Source of the DNA: Methanospirillum hungatei JF-1
Lineage (GTDB): Archaea; Halobacteriota; Methanomicrobia; Methanomicrobiales; Methanospirillaceae
Direction of reading: 5' to 3'
NCBI RefSeq assembly: GCF_000013445.1
Contig: NC_007796.1
Location: 2,454,936-2,518,935, forward strand
DNA length: 64,000 bases
Shown: one piece after another, positions 35,808-44,536 of the stretch
Layout: every line of letters begins with the position of its first letter
Numbering within the stretch: the first letter of the stretch is position 1
Program-made: the position numbers and the translations under genes
The notes under the pieces: generated by a model
Database searches by the model: none
What the model was told of the DNA's origin: nothing
Seen by the model: the letters and a program-made list of their open reading frames with translations, nothing else

Positions 35808-36338
35808 ATGGAGTACCAAATCATGGGTATGATCAGTCATTCCTGCCTTTCAAGGCTGATGTTTGGAATCATCGCCGTTCTTATCATCCTAATCTCCCTC
35901 TCGTCACCATCTGTTGGCATTTCTCATCCTGCCAATGTATCTGATCCCGATCTCCAAATCATTTCAATCAATATTCCACCGGAAGAAAGAACGGTGTATC
36001 CCGGAGTTACTATCCATCCGATCATAACAGTTTATAATAAAAACAACCAGACTGATATGAAAAATTCGATTCTGCTCTCTGCAACGCTTGGGCCGGCCAC
36101 CCTTCTTCAGAATAATACCTATCTGGATGCTCCGGGGGATGGAGAGAGCAGGGAGTACCGCATACCTTTTATGGTCCCGTTTATTCAGCCCGGAACATAC
36201 GCCCTGACTATCAGTGGAGAGCAGAAATTACGTGATGGAAACAAGGGGATCTTGTTTGGAAGTATGAAATCAAAAACGATGATAGAGGTGAAACAACCAA
36301 GACCAGAGACCGGGAAAAAGATGTGTAATTGCAGATAG
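35808..36338 (+). CDS. Secreted CARDB-like protein
   Basis: This 176-residue protein has a signal peptide or anchor (MFGIIAVLIILISLSS) and an Ig-like, CARDB-type domain with PEERTVYPGVTIHPIITVYNK and EYRIPFMVPFIQPGTYALTISG. It ends in MCNCR. Such domains build the extracellular faces of archaeal membrane proteins, including the three kinase-like proteins next door. It is convergent with the TPR protein (2 bases between stops), and may be part of the same signalling assembly. Starts at 35808, 35823 and 35829 are all possible. Confidence 0.65.
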   Translation: MEYQIMGMISHSCLSRLMFGIIAVLIILISLSSPSVGISHPANVSDPDLQIISINIPPEERTVYPGVTIHPIITVYNKNNQTDMKNSILLSATLGPATLLQNNTYLDAPGDGESREYRIPFMVPFIQPGTYALTISGEQKLRDGNKGILFGSMKSKTMIEVKQPRPETGKKMCNCR

Positions 36339-36339
36339 G

Positions 36340-37464
36340 TTATCTGAAAATTTTATCCCTGAAATAAAAAATACCAAAGATACCGAGAGCAGTGAGTATA
36401 TATAACTCCGGATGGCTGAATAGAAAAGAGAGATCCGACGTTTTATCCTGTTGATAGTATGTATACTCTCTCTTTAATCTCTCTAAAAGATTCGTCTGAT
36501 CCGGAGTGAGAGCTGATTTTGGGATAGAATCAAGAGTCTCTTTTGCTTTCGCCATCTTTCCCTGACGCATCCGTGCCTCAGCAAGACCCAGGGAAGCGTC
36601 AATATTTTTCGGATCGAACGAGAGGCTATTTTGAAACGATTCTTCTGCATGTCTATAGTCCTGTAATTTGGAATATAACTCGCCCATATAACTGTACACC
36701 AGAGGATCATTACCGGAAAATTTCAGCCCTTCAAGTTCCTGAATGGCTTTATCCGGCATATTCAGGGTAGAGAATGCACGAGACCTCTTCTTTCGAAGAC
36801 CATCAGACATTCCCGGATCTGTTTCATTTTGAAGGGAACGATTCCAGGCATCAAGCGCAGAATGAAAATCCCCTTTTGCCCGGTAGGCATCACCTGTTTT
36901 TCTGGAATAAGTAGGATTTCCGGGATCAATCTGTTCTGCAAGGAGATAAGATTGAAGAGCTGCATCATACTTTCCTGATTCCATGAACCGATCCCCTTCT
37001 CTTTCCAATTGCACAGGATCTGAAATGACCACGTATCCGGGATCAGATCCCTGATGGTGAGAGACTATGCTTTCACCGTTATTGGCATCAACCGGATATT
37101 TTATCCGCTCAGCACCAAACAACTCACGGACTTCTGATAAAGGAGGAGAAGATGAGTCATCACAGGCATCAGGATTGAGAAGGCATCTCCCGGTTTTAAA
37201 GGCATCTTCAGCCTCCATATCTCTCCCCATGTCAGCCAGGACTGTACCCTTCCAGAGCCATCCATAGGGCCAGGAAGGATCAGTCAGAACTACCGATTCA
37301 AATAACTGAAGAGCAGTGTCCCGATCACCGGAGTTATACATATCAACACCTTCGGCAAGTAATTTTTCAATTTCAGCGGGTGATGCAGAAGCCCCGGATA
37401 CGAGGAGAAAAATAATACAGAGAATCGAAAGAGTGACCGGTGAAACGTTCCCATTAAGAATCAT
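36340..37464 (-). CDS. Secreted TPR protein with C-terminal anchor
   Basis: The 374-residue protein has an N-terminal signal (LSILCIIFLLVSGASA), TPR units at about 30-100 and 160-330 (NSGDRDTALQLFESVVLTDP, DAALQSYLLAEQIDPGNP, RHAEESFQNSLSFDPKN) and a single membrane helix near the C-terminus (LYILTALGIFGIFYF). The TPRs face out of the cytoplasm if the signal is cleaved. It is the last gene of a four-gene operon, 6 bases after the third kinase-like gene, and may be a scaffold for them. Confidence 0.85.
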   Translation of the reverse strand: MILNGNVSPVTLSILCIIFLLVSGASASPAEIEKLLAEGVDMYNSGDRDTALQLFESVVLTDPSWPYGWLWKGTVLADMGRDMEAEDAFKTGRCLLNPDACDDSSSPPLSEVRELFGAERIKYPVDANNGESIVSHHQGSDPGYVVISDPVQLEREGDRFMESGKYDAALQSYLLAEQIDPGNPTYSRKTGDAYRAKGDFHSALDAWNRSLQNETDPGMSDGLRKKRSRAFSTLNMPDKAIQELEGLKFSGNDPLVYSYMGELYSKLQDYRHAEESFQNSLSFDPKNIDASLGLAEARMRQGKMAKAKETLDSIPKSALTPDQTNLLERLKREYTYYQQDKTSDLSFLFSHPELYILTALGIFGIFYFRDKIFR

Positions 37465-37470
37465 ATATCA

Positions 37471-39960
37471 TTATTTTTTAAATGTTTGTAACAAAGTATC
37501 AATTTCATGAATCATTTCCCGAATATCTCCATACCGTTCATTTTTATCAATATGCACGGATTTTTTAATAATCGGATCATACACTCCATAATCTGACCGA
37601 AAATGTGAGGGAAGTGAACTTATGCTTTCAAAACAATTGAGAACCTGTCCTGATAAAAGATAATAAAAGATCGCCCCTACCTGATAGATATCCGTCTTTT
37701 TACCAGGATTGCCAAATTTTTCAGGATTCCTCTGCTCAGGGGCAATAACCCAGCAATCATCAGGAATGCCAGACTGAATCAACGCAGAAGTATCAAACCC
37801 AGATATTTTCGGTTGTAATCCATCATCAAGAAAGATGACAGAGGGCTCAAGAAGGTAGTGTCGGACACCCTGTCGATGTATGTAATCAATCCCTTCTGCA
37901 AGCCCCCGAACAATACGAAGTGCAGCCCTCGCGGGTATGGGCACTTTCAGATCTGCCAGCGAATAGATCCTCTTTTTCGATTGTATTGCACCGGATGGAA
38001 GATCAAATTCCAGGAAATAAACAGGATCACGTTCCCAGAACTTGATCTGCATAATATTCATATGCTTAAGTGACCGCCACGCCTGTATCTGTAATTCAAC
38101 CTGAGAGGCAGGGATTACCCCGGAATCAAGAACCCTGACAGCAACTTCTATATTATCAGCAGCCCGGAGAGCCCGGTACATAATACCAAGCCTATCTGTT
38201 GAGATCAATGCAGATGGTTTGTAGATGGGCAGTAAAGAGTCTGGAAATCCTGTCAAAGAGGGAGAGAGAGATACCTGAGTGGCATTGCCTTCCTGTGCAT
38301 CCACCTTTCTCTTTACATCAGGCTCATGGTCACGTATGTCAGATGAATCCATGGTATTAACTTCTGAAGAAGAATCCATCTTCCTCTTAATCAGATCCCG
38401 ATACCGCTTGAGGGTACCATCATCATTCCCCAAATCGATCTGCTGGTTAAACCATTCCAGGGATTCTGAGTACTTTTTGGAGAAGAATAGAAATATCCCC
38501 TTATTGTAAGGGATCTTCACCGACAGCGGGAAGGAATATTCATTTTCAGTCAGGATACGTAATTTTTTGTATACCGATAGTTCATCCGAATCAGGAACGT
38601 CCATTACCAATTCGATACCCCGCTCTTCTCCTGATGCAAGAAGGATTGAATCTGCTTCAAGAGGAAAGGGATTATTATTTTTTATCTTGAGTATTGCAAT
38701 GATATTCCCTTTTTTCTGAATGAAGCGTTCAAAAAACCATGACAGATCGAGGTCTCTGGGCATGATACGATACTGAAGGTGAATTACCCGGCTTTTTTCT
38801 TTTCCGTTCCCATCAATATACGAAACCGCCTGGGATACCTCACAATCTCCGGGATCATCATCAAATATCTCCCGAAAAACAATCCTGCATACTCCGGGTT
38901 CAATCCGAATCGTATCAACAACAATTGGTTTTGTCCCCATGTTTGTAATTTTCAATTTGAGTGATTTTTTATCTCCCTGTTTAAATAGTCCTGCAACAGG
39001 GTCAAACCTCACATCATCAGATGATATTCTTCTTCGTGTTTCGATTGCAAAATCCCGGCCACTCTCCTTCTGAACAGAGGAGGGAAGGACATGTGAAACC
39101 ACGAATTTTATCCTTTTGATCTCACCAGAAATAACCACAATCGAAATTACCGCTACCGTCGTCAGCGTAATAATTACCCCGAGGATGATGAAAAAATTAG
39201 ATAAGATCAAAGTCAGGACGGGATTGGAGTTTTCCAGTAAGAGTGATTCTTTTGTTTCAATCAAAACCCCTGACTTTTCCGGACTATAGGTGATTGAATG
39301 GATGGAATTCGGTTTTACCTCGATATCGCTCTCCATCACACCTTCTTTTCCTTTAACCACAACATGATGAATGCCCACTGGAATATGAGGAAGAGTTAAC
39401 GGGGTCAGACCTGCAGGCATACCATCAAGTTCAACAGGTACATGAAGTGGCCCTGCAGTAACCTGTATACTACCGGAATTCTGATCATTATGTGGCAATC
39501 CCGTGGTAATTTCCATTGAGAGGAACACTGGATCTGAAATCCTGTTCGTTTTCCCGCTTGGTAACAATCGAACAACAGCAAAGGCGAGTTTTACCTGACC
39601 GACATTATGCGCTGATATGAGAAAAGGGAACTGGTAACTCTGCCCGGTATGAACCCGGGATCCTTTCGGTAACAGTTGTAACGGTGGATCAACGGTGATA
39701 AGGTTTGAATCCCCAGAATATTCGACACCTATCTTTTCAACATCATGTTCCCAGGCAGTCATACCCGTATTACGAAACTCAACCATGTATTGGCCATTCT
39801 GACCTGGATACATTACATCAGGAATACTGTCTGAAGAATACTCTCCGCCCTGAAACGTAATACCAGATATTGAACCCTGATCAACACAACAGACAGGGGT
39901 AATAATTAAAAAAGATATAAAAATGAAGAACAATAGAATAAAAAACGAATGGGAACTCAT
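37471..39960 (-). CDS. Membrane-anchored PEGA protein with degenerate kinase-like domain (paralogue 1)
   Basis: The 829-residue protein has a signal peptide; a repeated extracellular domain (SDSIPDVMYPGQ, FRNTGMTAWE); a PEGA domain (GSIQVTAGPLHVPVELDG); a membrane helix near 250-275; an Ig-like and helical cytoplasmic part; and a kinase-fold domain (about 600-829). APEQRNPEKFG and TDIYQVGAIFYYLLSG are kinase-typical, but HRD is replaced by HYL (701-703), DFG by GFD (721-723), and the beta-3 Lys by Arg (VAVRVL). It is predicted to be catalytically inactive. It overlaps paralogue 2 by 4 bases. Confidence 0.85.
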   Translation of the reverse strand: MSSHSFFILLFFIFISFLIITPVCCVDQGSISGITFQGGEYSSDSIPDVMYPGQNGQYMVEFRNTGMTAWEHDVEKIGVEYSGDSNLITVDPPLQLLPKGSRVHTGQSYQFPFLISAHNVGQVKLAFAVVRLLPSGKTNRISDPVFLSMEITTGLPHNDQNSGSIQVTAGPLHVPVELDGMPAGLTPLTLPHIPVGIHHVVVKGKEGVMESDIEVKPNSIHSITYSPEKSGVLIETKESLLLENSNPVLTLILSNFFIILGVIITLTTVAVISIVVISGEIKRIKFVVSHVLPSSVQKESGRDFAIETRRRISSDDVRFDPVAGLFKQGDKKSLKLKITNMGTKPIVVDTIRIEPGVCRIVFREIFDDDPGDCEVSQAVSYIDGNGKEKSRVIHLQYRIMPRDLDLSWFFERFIQKKGNIIAILKIKNNNPFPLEADSILLASGEERGIELVMDVPDSDELSVYKKLRILTENEYSFPLSVKIPYNKGIFLFFSKKYSESLEWFNQQIDLGNDDGTLKRYRDLIKRKMDSSSEVNTMDSSDIRDHEPDVKRKVDAQEGNATQVSLSPSLTGFPDSLLPIYKPSALISTDRLGIMYRALRAADNIEVAVRVLDSGVIPASQVELQIQAWRSLKHMNIMQIKFWERDPVYFLEFDLPSGAIQSKKRIYSLADLKVPIPARAALRIVRGLAEGIDYIHRQGVRHYLLEPSVIFLDDGLQPKISGFDTSALIQSGIPDDCWVIAPEQRNPEKFGNPGKKTDIYQVGAIFYYLLSGQVLNCFESISSLPSHFRSDYGVYDPIIKKSVHIDKNERYGDIREMIHEIDTLLQTFKK

Positions 39961-42452
39961 GCATCATCACCGGATAGTGCCATACCTTCTTTTATATAAA
40001 AATCAGGTATTATTCCCTTCAGATCATCTAAAAATGCCTCAACTGAAGCATACCGATCCTTTTTAAAACGGGCTGTAAGTTTCTTTAACAATGGAATATA
40101 CAATTCAAAAGAGGGATCAGAAGTCACATTATCCATTGTCATTGAAATAATCTCATCCGCAGATTCTCCCTTTTCCATTATCCGGCCGGTCATCAGCCAG
40201 AGCCATATTACTCCCAATTGGTATATATCCGTTCTTTTTCCGGGTTTGCCAAAAAAGGAAGGGTCCACCTGTTCTGGTGCACAGACAAAAAATTCCTCAA
40301 CCCCGCCTCCTCCCGCACTTCGAAGTGATTCACGGATAAGACCAGATATTTTAGGATTCAATGGCTCATCCAGAAGAATATATTTTGGTGAGAGATGGTA
40401 ATGACGGACACCTTGCCGGTGAAGATATGCAAGCCCTTCTGCAATCTTTTCAATCAGCAGGGAAGAGACATGATTGGGGAGCGGGACTGGTAAATCTGAT
40501 ACCCTCATATATTGTTTATCTTCATACCACCCTCCGGAGACAAATTCAAGTTCCAGCATAACAACCGGATAAAATTCTGCTTTATACATCCGGAGCACAT
40601 AGGGATGACGAAGTTGATAGAGAAGAGAGATTTCAGTGAATAACGATGAGCCGATTTTTTCAATGGTTCGGGGAATTTTAAGAGCACGTAAATCACCGGT
40701 GTCATTTTTCCGGACCAGGATTACCGTAGCAAACGGATCATCTCCCAGAACACGGATAGGAGTATACCGGTCAGATAATTCATCAGGATATCCGGAAATT
40801 TTAATTACAGCATCTGAACCAGCTTTGTCCTTTTTTCGTGCTGCTTTATCCTGAATTTGATTCAGAGCATTCAGGGCAGCTTCATGTTCAGGATCCAAGA
40901 CCAGGATCTCTTGCAAAACTGACTGTGCCTCTTCTTCCAGACCCCAATTTAAAAGGATTTGAGCCTGTTGAAATAATCCGTCAACATTGTCCGGGTGTGT
41001 CACCAGTAATGCTCTAAAATACTCATATGCCTTTTCAACCACTCCCCGTGCAAGTAACGCAATCCCCCGGTTATATGGGATAATAATATTTTTAAAGAAC
41101 TCTGAACCCTCTGCAAAAATACGAAGTGAAATAATTGTATCAGGTTCATCATTCGTTGGTTCACTGATTTCAACAGGTACTATCCCGAATCCACCAGGAC
41201 TGATAGTGTGATCCTCTACCGATACCGGAACAGAAGAATGATTTGATACTCCAATGCTCGCTGTTGCAGAACCGGGCCGGGTTGTTAAATCCCGAAACTG
41301 GAAATCCACATCATCTTTTATAGTATCTGGTTTTGTTGGTTTTGAGGAGGGTTTCGGTTTTGAGGAATCTTTAGTAGAATTTTTCTTTTCAATTCCTTTT
41401 GAGGATTTTTTTCTTGAAATATGACCGGTTCCAGATCGATCAGATACTTTGCCATATACGCCATGAGAGATATCAGATGATGATGACAATCCTTCAAATA
41501 ATGGTTTTTTGCTATGTATTTTATCCAGTAGATCTTTTTCTTTTTTTGACCGCTCTTTTTCAGGGTCCTCTTCATCCTCCTTATCTTCTTTTTTCTTTCT
41601 ATCCTTTTCGGTTCGGTTTCGTTTTCTCAGTCCATACATACCAACACCGATACACGCAAGAAGGATCAATGAAATTATAATTATCAATGGAACATTCACT
41701 TCAATATATCCGATAAGGGTCCCGTCAGATACCGGCCCTGCCCTTTTCTTTGTAACAACCGGGATTTTTTCATCACCTCTCACGAGAAGACGTGTCATAA
41801 CTCCCCGTTCCACATCAACCGAAAACGTTCGCTCAAAGGTATCATTCTTTACCCGTATCATATACTGACCTGGTTTCACATCAGCAATTATCGCAGGGAC
41901 ATTTCCCATAAATGCTGAATCAAGGTAAACATCCAGATCCAGTACCGGGCTTTCTACAAAGATCGACCCATTTACCGGTGATGAGATCCCGTCGGTTGGG
42001 ACAATAGTCACATGCTTTACAAACACTTCGGTTATCTTCTGGTCACCGGTTGCTGACCGCATGACAACCGAGAAGGAGAGATCATAAGAACCCGGAGTCC
42101 CCACCGGGAGGAGGGTAAATCCAAAAGTTGCATGTTTACCGGGGGTAATATTCAGATCACGGGAGATCTCCACAAAAGAGGGGACAGCAGTAACTTTTGT
42201 CATATCACCTTCATAGAGGAGGCCAATCCGCCTCATTTCATCCTGCCAGCTGACAAGACCAGTGTTCCGGAATGTAACCAGAACAGGATATGAATGACCT
42301 GGGAGTAAGGTATCGGGGATGGTATCTGATATGTACGAAGGTCCAAAGCCGGGAGATATCACCCACTGTTCTTGTGCATAAACCGGGGATAATATCACTG
42401 AAATGACAAGGAGAATGAATAGTATGATAGGGACCATTCGTACCAGGCTCAA
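39957..42452 (-). CDS. Membrane-anchored PEGA protein with degenerate kinase-like domain (paralogue 2)
   Basis: The 831-residue protein has a signal peptide, the shared outer domain (SDTIPDTLLPGHSYPV, FRNTGLVSWQ), a PEGA domain (GSIFVESPVLDLDVYLDS), a membrane helix (VPLIIIISLILLACIGVGMY), a long charged Lys/Glu linker and an SSKPKPSSKP stretch, TPR units (EKAYEYFRALLVTHPDN) and a C-terminal kinase fold. Lys592 (RALKIP) and a helix-C Glu are kept, but HRD is HYH (684-686) and DFG is GLI (704-706). APEQVDPSFFG and TDIYQLGVIWLWLMTG remain. It is probably a pseudokinase that may still bind nucleotide. It overlaps paralogue 1 by 4 bases. Confidence 0.87.
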   Translation of the reverse strand: MSLVRMVPIILFILLVISVILSPVYAQEQWVISPGFGPSYISDTIPDTLLPGHSYPVLVTFRNTGLVSWQDEMRRIGLLYEGDMTKVTAVPSFVEISRDLNITPGKHATFGFTLLPVGTPGSYDLSFSVVMRSATGDQKITEVFVKHVTIVPTDGISSPVNGSIFVESPVLDLDVYLDSAFMGNVPAIIADVKPGQYMIRVKNDTFERTFSVDVERGVMTRLLVRGDEKIPVVTKKRAGPVSDGTLIGYIEVNVPLIIIISLILLACIGVGMYGLRKRNRTEKDRKKKEDKEDEEDPEKERSKKEKDLLDKIHSKKPLFEGLSSSSDISHGVYGKVSDRSGTGHISRKKSSKGIEKKNSTKDSSKPKPSSKPTKPDTIKDDVDFQFRDLTTRPGSATASIGVSNHSSVPVSVEDHTISPGGFGIVPVEISEPTNDEPDTIISLRIFAEGSEFFKNIIIPYNRGIALLARGVVEKAYEYFRALLVTHPDNVDGLFQQAQILLNWGLEEEAQSVLQEILVLDPEHEAALNALNQIQDKAARKKDKAGSDAVIKISGYPDELSDRYTPIRVLGDDPFATVILVRKNDTGDLRALKIPRTIEKIGSSLFTEISLLYQLRHPYVLRMYKAEFYPVVMLELEFVSGGWYEDKQYMRVSDLPVPLPNHVSSLLIEKIAEGLAYLHRQGVRHYHLSPKYILLDEPLNPKISGLIRESLRSAGGGGVEEFFVCAPEQVDPSFFGKPGKRTDIYQLGVIWLWLMTGRIMEKGESADEIISMTMDNVTSDPSFELYIPLLKKLTARFKKDRYASVEAFLDDLKGIIPDFYIKEGMALSGDDA

Positions 42453-42490
42453 AGAATCAGATATACGTACAGCCTATTTATACTACCGGT

Positions 42491-44536
42491 TTAGGCCTTT
42501 CTGACGCTATCGAGATCTTTGATAAATTCATCCATCAGATAATACCGACCGGATTTTTTTCGTGATAACATCCGCACAATGATAGGATCATACTTCTCAA
42601 GACTTTTCCTGAAAGCGGATGGTAAAATCAGTTCATCTGCATGATCCTCAAACGTTCCTTCATGCCCTGATTTTTGAAATGCTTCAGGACTATACGGGAG
42701 ATACCCGGTCAGAAGTTCATAAAAAATTACTCCCAACTGGTAGATATCCGTTCTTCGCCCGGGATTTCCATACTTTTGTTCATCCCTCTGCTCAGGTGTA
42801 ATAAATGCCGCGGTAGCCCCTCTGACATCAGAATCCTTAACAGAAAATCCGAGTTCATTCCTTCCCCTGGCAAAACCGGAGACCTTTGCGCGAAGTTTTG
42901 GGGTCAGGAGAATATCTCCGGACTGGAGATGATAATGCCTGACACCAACATCATGGGCATATTTCAACCCTTCTGCGATATCACGGACAAGGGATACGGC
43001 ATATTGTTCCCGGATAGGTTTTGGAAGACCGTTCAGGGATGTATGAACCATCCCCTTGTATGATACCCCGTCAAGGTACTCATTTTCAAGATAGGACATA
43101 TCATCCAGAAATTCAGATTTGAAAAGATGCACAATGTTCGGATGACGAAGGGATCGCCAGACCGCTGACTCTTTCTGAAGAATCTCACTCCCAGGCTGTT
43201 TTGAGTGTCCAACCTTGAGTGCCCGGACATCACCGCTTTCTTTTTTCCTCACCTTATAGACACGGGCATAGGTATCATCCCCGGCAACACCCAGTGGTTC
43301 ATACCGGTCCCGAAGAGCGTGGGGGAACCCATATATCCCTTCAATCTCCCGTCCTTCCTGGTCAGGGTCCTCGACATCTGGCAATGATTCATCTTCTTCA
43401 GTCTCTATGGGCTTTCTTTCAGAACTCTCCCCATCACGCCGGATTTTTCGATCACGGACACTTTTCCGGGTTCCTGATTCTGAACCGGCAGTTTTTCCTT
43501 GTTCCCGTCTGCGATCACCATCAGCACCACCTGATGCATCCGCACCACCACCGGTACTTTCTCCTCTCCCATCTTTACTTAATCCCCTCTGGAATCTGCT
43601 CTTCCCATCAGCGTATGGAGCGAGCAGAATGAGGGGCCTTGTATACCGTCTTACCGGATGGTGCTCAGGAATTCTCTTCGTATCCATCATGATGACCTGA
43701 AATCCGAAAAACAGAATGATGATGCTGATGATGATGAGAGAAATATTATCAAGGAGCCATCCAAGCGGGGTAAACTTCAGGAGTTGCTCAGTTGATACCA
43801 CTGGTTTTTCAGATGTAGTCAGATCAACGGTAACTCTGCTGACTGATCCTGGTTCAACCCGTACCTGCGCCCATTTTCGGCCATAATCTGGATGAGAGAC
43901 GGTAATCTCATACTGAGCAGGGTTCAGATCAGGCAACGTGAGAGGAGTTTTCCCTTTCTCTTCACTGCCCATACTGACCATGGCTCCGGTTGGGTTAGAT
44001 TGAATAATAATTGAACCCACATTCCCGGATGAGACCCCCTCTTTTGGGATAACAATGATCTTTTTGGTAAAACCATTCGGAAAAGGCGTATATTTATCCT
44101 CACCCTTTCTTGTTGACATTGAAAAACTGAGCTCATATTCACCAGGTTTATCCGGAGGGGTCAGAACAAAGGGAAATGAGATCTCTTCCTGTGTTGCTAC
44201 TTTCATCCCAGCTGGAATAGGAGAGAAAACCGGGTCCACGGTGATGGATGACTGTAATCCCTGGTAGAGGAGACCGAATTTTTCAACCCCCCATTCCCAT
44301 GAGACCATCCCGTTATTCTGAAATGAGATTACCACCGGATATGATGAACCGGCCTCAAGTGAGGATGGTATGGTGTCTGATACATAATCTCCTTTATAAT
44401 AACCGACACCCGATGTCCCGCCCATACCAAAGAGATCATCCGCAGCATACACACCTGGAACCATGAAAACCAGAAGAGTAAGAAAGATGGGGCCAGCCAT
44501 ACTCATATTCATCCAATTCTGGTTTGTTCCACTCAT
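42491..44536 (-). CDS. Membrane-anchored PEGA protein with degenerate kinase-like domain (paralogue 3)
   Basis: The 681-residue protein is the first gene of the operon. It has a signal peptide, the shared outer domain (SDTIPSSLEAGSSYPV, FQNNGMVSWE), a PEGA domain (GSIIIQSNPTGAMVSMGS), a membrane helix (ISLIIISIIILFFGFQVI), a Ser/Glu/Asp-rich linker and a kinase fold. Lys441 (RALKVG) and the helix-C Glu (QKESAVWRSLRH) are present. The catalytic loop reads HYH (534-536) and DFG is GFA (554-556). ITPEQRDEQKYG and TDIYQLGVIFYELLTGYLPY are conserved. It lacks TPRs, unlike paralogue 2. A 38-base gap separates it from paralogue 2. Confidence 0.87.
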   Translation of the reverse strand: MSGTNQNWMNMSMAGPIFLTLLVFMVPGVYAADDLFGMGGTSGVGYYKGDYVSDTIPSSLEAGSSYPVVISFQNNGMVSWEWGVEKFGLLYQGLQSSITVDPVFSPIPAGMKVATQEEISFPFVLTPPDKPGEYELSFSMSTRKGEDKYTPFPNGFTKKIIVIPKEGVSSGNVGSIIIQSNPTGAMVSMGSEEKGKTPLTLPDLNPAQYEITVSHPDYGRKWAQVRVEPGSVSRVTVDLTTSEKPVVSTEQLLKFTPLGWLLDNISLIIISIIILFFGFQVIMMDTKRIPEHHPVRRYTRPLILLAPYADGKSRFQRGLSKDGRGESTGGGADASGGADGDRRREQGKTAGSESGTRKSVRDRKIRRDGESSERKPIETEEDESLPDVEDPDQEGREIEGIYGFPHALRDRYEPLGVAGDDTYARVYKVRKKESGDVRALKVGHSKQPGSEILQKESAVWRSLRHPNIVHLFKSEFLDDMSYLENEYLDGVSYKGMVHTSLNGLPKPIREQYAVSLVRDIAEGLKYAHDVGVRHYHLQSGDILLTPKLRAKVSGFARGRNELGFSVKDSDVRGATAAFITPEQRDEQKYGNPGRRTDIYQLGVIFYELLTGYLPYSPEAFQKSGHEGTFEDHADELILPSAFRKSLEKYDPIIVRMLSRKKSGRYYLMDEFIKDLDSVRKA

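Follow-up and report, generated by a model that had tools for sequence, protein, structure and literature searches.

Three tandem receptor-shaped proteins with catalytically degenerate kinase domains in Methanospirillum hungatei JF-1

Three adjacent genes of Methanospirillum hungatei JF-1 (here K1, K2 and K3) encode membrane-anchored proteins with degenerate kinase domains, as was originally predicted and is now confirmed by Pkinase profile matches, transmembrane layout and a structural model of K1. Judged from sequence, they are likely to be single-pass, receptor-shaped pseudokinases that descend from an active archaeal receptor Ser/Thr kinase and act by binding. The window analysed is a 64,000 nt stretch of DNA, positions 2,454,936–2,518,935 of the single 3,544,738-base contig.

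K1 (42491–44536, 681 aa), K2 (39957–42452, 831 aa, starting at TTG or at an ATG five codons on), K3 (37471–39960, 829 aa) and a TPR gene (36340–37464, 374 aa) lie in this order, head to tail, on the minus strand of the window. K2 and K3 overlap by 4 bases, and 6 bases separate K3 from the TPR gene. A TATA-like stretch 5′ of K2, recognised by eye, may be an internal promoter. The neighbours examined around the cluster are housekeeping genes. Upstream, the gene for coenzyme F390 synthetase (TIGR03335; 44600–45952, plus strand) is divergent from K1 at a distance of 63 bases, and it adjoins K1 in five of the eight genus genomes in which that flank is readable. Downstream, a gene convergent with the cluster (35808–36338, plus strand) specifies a small secreted protein that is Ig-like by eye and has a C-terminal CNCR; an NCBIfam search with it gave no match, and its homologue adjoins the cluster in nine of the ten genus genomes with a readable flank. 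It is a possible extracellular partner of the cluster.

A search with K1 at 1e-40 matched 16 of 232 genomes of the order: 12 of the genus, one of a sister genus (G017, locus L057) and three that carry intact kinases only. K1 is present in 11 of the 12 genus genomes (the remaining one being 75% complete), K2 in all 12 and K3 in nine, and K1 has the widest range seen. The sister-genus genome carries K1 alone, in the same place beside secY-adk-DUF106-cmk, the position next to secY-adk-cmk being kept even there. The TPR gene was found in six of the ten genus genomes with a readable downstream flank, and two of these ten lack K3. In G002 and G010 both K3 and the TPR gene are absent, the gene after K2 being the homologue of the convergent 35808–36338, and in G003 and G004 no TPR gene follows K3; the contigs of G006 and G011 end within K2 and K3, respectively. 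K1 and K2 are the core of the cluster in the genus, and K3 and the TPR gene are accessory. The proposal that the TPR gene shares an operon with the kinases fits the tight packing in the window, but with four of ten genomes lacking it the gene is not a constant partner.

In the genomes searched, the family was seen only in Methanospirillum and the one sister-genus genome. Among 231 order genomes, none showed an intact orthologue with the same Ig-PEGA ectodomain; ectodomain matches beyond the genus and G017 cover either the Ig or the PEGA part, never both in full. Across 392 genomes of the phylum (E 1e-36), the kinases read outside the family were all intact, at a cut-off that distant pseudokinases would escape.

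The three proteins share one plan: an N-terminal signal or anchor, an Ig-like domain, a PEGA domain, a single transmembrane helix (TM) with basic residues behind it, a linker and, at the C-terminus, the kinase domain. The predicted ectodomain-TM-kinase layout is thus borne out by domain matches and the K1 model. In K1 the Ig-like domain spans residues ~49–163, PEGA 174–241, the TM 265–283, a disordered linker 296–400 and the pseudokinase 403–678. K2 has its TM at 254–272, a basic linker, a beta-sandwich with TPR-like helices at 382–546 and the pseudokinase at ~556–815. In K3 the PEGA domain is weak, the TM lies at 258–276, and a K2-like cytoplasmic region precedes the pseudokinase (~578–825). 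The beta-rich stretch and short TPR-like helices before the kinase are predicted by a model in K2 (a weaker model than that of K1, mean pLDDT 68, pTM 0.36) and by alignment in K3. Between two M. hungatei genomes (K2 against L029 6939–9443), the identity of K2 is 94% for the ectodomain and 92% for the kinase but falls to 56% for the linker and 52% for the beta-sandwich/TPR stretch, a pattern such as the replacement of an internal segment would leave.

All three proteins match Pkinase (PF00069) above the Pfam cut-off of 31.7 bits, with 82.6 bits for K1 (E = 3.9e-23), 60.4 for K2 (2.3e-16) and 47.6 for K3 (1.8e-12). The K1 model (mean pLDDT 72, pTM 0.55) has a kinase fold, residues 404–680 aligning with PknB at Z 25.7 and rmsd 2.5 over 237 residues (27% identity). 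Membership of the protein kinase superfamily is supported by the profile for all three domains and by the predicted fold for K1. PEGA (PF08308, cut-off 20.8 bits) was assigned to all three proteins in the original prediction; K1 (47.1 bits, E = 2.2e-12) and K2 (22.8 bits, 8.8e-5) lie above the cut-off, and K3 (19.2 bits, 1.2e-3) falls below it. Eight of ten ectodomains match the NBR1 Ig profile (PF16158) at E up to 1 (best 2.6e-5), the Ig-like domain of window K1 scoring 19.6 bits, a weak likeness below the cut-off of 28. A profile search of PDB sequences with the ectodomain gave no match, and in whole-model fold searches of K1 the matches were all taken up by kinases. An Ig-like domain resembling the one in the K ectodomains also forms the C-terminus of a secreted protein, beta-helix-like by eye, encoded at L141 336–1739 (plus strand; 2727835–2729238 of the same genome).

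The TPR protein had been proposed as a partner. Each of the six orthologues examined has a signal at the N-terminus and, at the C-terminus, a hydrophobic, TM-like stretch that ends in a basic tail, so the TPR repeats are predicted to lie outside the cell and not inside. If it is a partner at all, it would therefore act on the ectodomains.

Many archaeal surface proteins carry Ig-like and PEGA domains, and this, with the narrow range of the family (Methanospirillum plus one sister-genus genome), would also suit a role in envelope assembly in place of sensing. The ectodomains would then dock parts of the S-layer or sheath and the pseudokinase would recruit assembly proteins, like EssB/YukC of type VII secretion. 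Methanospirillum is sheathed according to passages of PMC11576556, and EssB is a membrane pseudokinase scaffold according to part of the text of PMC12599244. However, passages of PMC11576556 credit Methanolinea, too, with sheath proteins, yet no full-length K1 was found in it in the order search; the portion available of the same paper, on the M. hungatei envelope, names none of K1–K3 or the TPR protein; and the neighbours of the cluster are housekeeping genes. We regard a role in envelope assembly as rather unlikely.

The HRD motif is replaced by HYH in K1 (residues 534–536; 42929–42937, minus strand) and K2 (684–686; 40395–40403, minus strand) and by HYL in K3 (701–703; 37852–37860, minus strand), while DFG is replaced by GFA (554–556; 42869–42877), GLI (704–706; 40335–40343) and GFD (721–723; 37792–37800), respectively, again on the minus strand. 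Aligning the three domains with intact kinases from this genome and from the order set the register; the HRD substitutions fall exactly at the residues named in the original prediction, which also gave GFA, GLI and GFD for DFG. The catalytic loops read HYHLQSGD, HYHLSPKY and HYLLEPSV. The ATP-binding Lys of VAIK, said to be kept in two proteins and replaced by Arg in one, is indeed K, K and R in K1, K2 and K3 of the window. The TPEQ/APEQ and TDIYQ(L/V)G motifs are present as described; APEQ and TDIYQ are the usual forms among intact kinases of this order, so they are inherited and not distinctive.

The losses extend to every readable orthologous domain (K2_L027, which ends before the catalytic loop, was left out of the motif counts). 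Both Asps are absent in 12/12 K1, 11/11 K2 and 8/8 K3 domains, and the pair that defines an active Hanks-type kinase (HRD Asp plus DFG Asp) occurs in 0 of 31. The HRD Asp is H in all 12 K1 and all 11 K2 domains and L in all eight K3 domains, the DFG Asp is G in all 31, and the catalytic-loop Lys is replaced by Q(H) in K1, S in K2 and E(D) in K3. The VAIK Lys and the alpha-C Glu are both retained in 23/23 K1 and K2 domains. In K3 the VAIK position is Arg in five of eight domains and Lys in three, and the alpha-C Glu is absent. A pseudokinase lacks one or more of the VAIK Lys, HRD Asp and DFG Asp, as defined in part of the text of PMC12599244; two of the three are lost in K1 and K2, and all three in window K3.

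Among the other kinase domains of the order and phylum, 82 of 83 keep both Asps: 54/54 of the distinct domains that match next best within the order and genus (from a 56-row control, the second copies L013 and L014 left out) and 28/29 from the phylum and genus (from a 36-row control, the second copies L128–L134 left out). Kept in nearly all of these and absent in all 31 family domains, the two Asps were not lost by chance. The single exception is an M. stamsii protein of at least 1858 residues (L143 3–5576, minus strand, in G009) with HGN for HRD and DFG intact, whose domains by eye are kinase-ATPase-GAF-histidine kinase-receiver. By the Pfam cut-off, K1–K3 make up three of the six kinase domains of this archaeon. 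An intact kinase of the same genome is encoded at 358301–359077.

From kinase biochemistry, ordinary Mg-dependent phosphotransfer is very unlikely in a domain without both Asps. K1 and K2 might still be unorthodox active kinases or transferases that hold ATP by the Lys-Glu pair and catalyse with residues recruited from elsewhere in the pocket; CASK is a metal-independent kinase, and SelO and SidJ carry out other chemistry. The pair itself is invariant in both, the loop Asn position of K1 is D or N in 12/12, an invariant Glu follows the DFG position at +7 in K1 and +4 in K2, and K3 has an Asp two residues after it. The activation segment of K1 is poorly predicted (pLDDT <50 at 558–560 and 568–573), so a compensating acid might lie there. 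In favour, too, part of the text of PMC12599244 describes pseudokinase folds with other chemistry; against, the SelO and SidJ described there keep the first Asp of DFG. The acids sit at differing positions in the three paralogues, so the alignment gives no replacement shared by K1, K2 and K3, the check that the original prediction had put forward as its own possible refutation. With both canonical Asps and the loop Lys gone in all, and K3 without Lys and Glu, we consider an active enzyme improbable. Migrated catalytic residues were rejected as an explanation on the alignment, though structurally they might still occur.

Alignment and structure prediction, suggested at the outset as checks, thus agree on lost Asps within a kinase fold (the latter from the K1 model), and the relatives with intact HRD and DFG that were also to be sought exist, at 34–40% identity to the K1 domain. 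In a maximum-likelihood tree of 85 domains (K2_L027, L013 and L014 left out; the program infers no root), all 31 degenerate domains group in a single clade with support of 99/100 against the 54 intact ones, as expected of a pseudokinase family of shared ancestry. Support was 98 in a quick tree with the Gly loop, VAIK, alpha-C Glu, HRD and DFG columns dropped (L036 also excluded), and 100 in a third, likewise quick, tree, built from selected rows and including, from across the phylum, the closest intact relatives in other families. K1, K2 and K3 each form one group; K2 and K3 join at only 89/65, a node flagged as a meeting of long branches. The exact intact sister of the clade was looked for in all three trees and was not settled.

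The dN/dS of the K1 domain is 0.033–0.164 (seven pairs), that of an intact kinase of the same genus 0.052–0.132 (five computable of seven pairs), and, where computable, that of K2 0.13–0.21 and of K3 0.10–0.20, with dS near saturation in most pairs. By these estimates the K1 domain is as constrained as the true kinase. Conservation is higher in the 12 catalytic-motif columns than over the whole domain (0.94 against 0.76 in K1, 0.92 against 0.72 in K2, 0.80 against 0.65 in K3), suggesting a selected role for the pseudo-active site, though the fold alone may also explain it. K3 changes at a higher rate and two genomes lack it, as four lack the TPR gene, but that K1–K3 are functionless kinases decaying towards loss is very hard to maintain with K1 in 11/12 and K2 in 12/12 genus genomes, low dN/dS and fixed replacement residues, and pseudogene decay of K1 and K2 is contradicted by this selection. 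Because both Asps are gone in all members, which form one clade in which K1 is constrained, a single loss followed by duplication and maintained function is suggested; the simplest history is one loss before duplication.

K1–K3 thus probably transmit or organise signals through binding and not through phosphorylation. In the lineage of Methanospirillum, the catalytic Asp, the catalytic-loop Lys and the metal-binding Asp would have disappeared from a K1-like ancestor before the gene was duplicated. The Ig-like/PEGA ectodomain would lie in the space under the S-layer and sheath, the TM would carry a signal inward, and the cytoplasmic pseudokinase would scaffold or allosterically regulate other proteins, possibly an intact kinase of the genome. 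The proteins may, as originally proposed, form a receptor complex. With the beta3 Lys-alphaC Glu pair still in place, K1 and K2 could bind nucleotide without metal, and pseudokinases that bind ATP without Mg are known (part of the text of PMC8141879), so nucleotide may serve as a conformational ligand or structural switch. K3, without the pair, would be a pure binding module. More tentatively, a duplicated binding-only receptor with a K1-K2 core and optional K3 and TPR protein may couple the sheathed surface to the cytoplasm, its pseudo-active site having a selected function of its own and its origin being independent of the eukaryotic receptor pseudokinases.

Much work has been done on eukaryotic pseudokinases, and a small number have been described from bacteria. 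Passages of a 2021 review (PMC8141879) place pseudokinases in every domain of life. No description of an archaeal pseudokinase was found in titles and abstracts of the open-licence literature, the portions available of PMC2875224 and PMC2447325 have no bearing on the family, and a search of expression literature by guessed locus tags gave nothing on K1–K3 or the TPR gene. As far as could be searched, the kind is known, and the archaeal receptor form, the restriction to a genus and sister genus, and the intact controls are new. With a receptor-shaped family traced to one loss, intact relatives in the same genomes as controls, a culturable host and half of its kinase domains in this family, the role of dead kinases in archaeal signalling becomes directly testable.

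K1–K3 fit no other named family tested beyond the kinase and PEGA domains. PADLOC matches to the anti-phage kinase systems PD-T4-6 and mad6, which call for system context besides a kinase domain, cover the kinase domain only; the neighbours examined, outside that scan, are housekeeping genes. The PASTA-type receptor Ser/Thr kinases (PknB/Stk1/StkP) share the kinase fold and the one TM between ectodomain and kinase, but in K1–K3 the kinase is C-terminal (the opposite order), Ig-like and PEGA domains stand in place of PASTA, and the catalytic residues are gone; K1 scores 94.3 against the NCBIfam PknB_PASTA model (NF033483), whose cut-off is 450. HER3 is a receptor pseudokinase, and such receptors of animals and plants have an ectodomain-TM-pseudokinase plan. 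K1–K3 resemble them in plan, with other ectodomains. Bacterial EssB/YukC and MviN are likewise membrane-anchored pseudokinases with degraded motifs, EssB being a scaffold (passages of PMC12599244), but EssB has a reduced activation loop where that of K1 is full-length, and MviN/ActPs3 has an activation-loop deletion and a TM after the kinase, where K1 has its TM before. The K1 loop equals or exceeds in length those of intact relatives and the loops of K2 and K3 are ~5–6 residues shorter, unlike the deletion of ActPs3/MviN. The best sequence relatives outside the family are intact archaeal receptor kinases with HHD/HRD-LKPLN loops, found in other families of the phylum and, within the order, in G041, G112 and G121. 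L145, L148, L149 and L151, from another archaeal family, carry two or three large intact kinases in tandem, several of them receptor-shaped; these are among the closest intact relatives of K1. All the intact relatives examined keep both Asps, and propellers, TPR or other repeats make up their outer parts, with PEGA in one, but most have the ectodomain-TM-kinase layout of K1–K3, and this common layout suggests that the family takes its input at the surface, with binding as its output.
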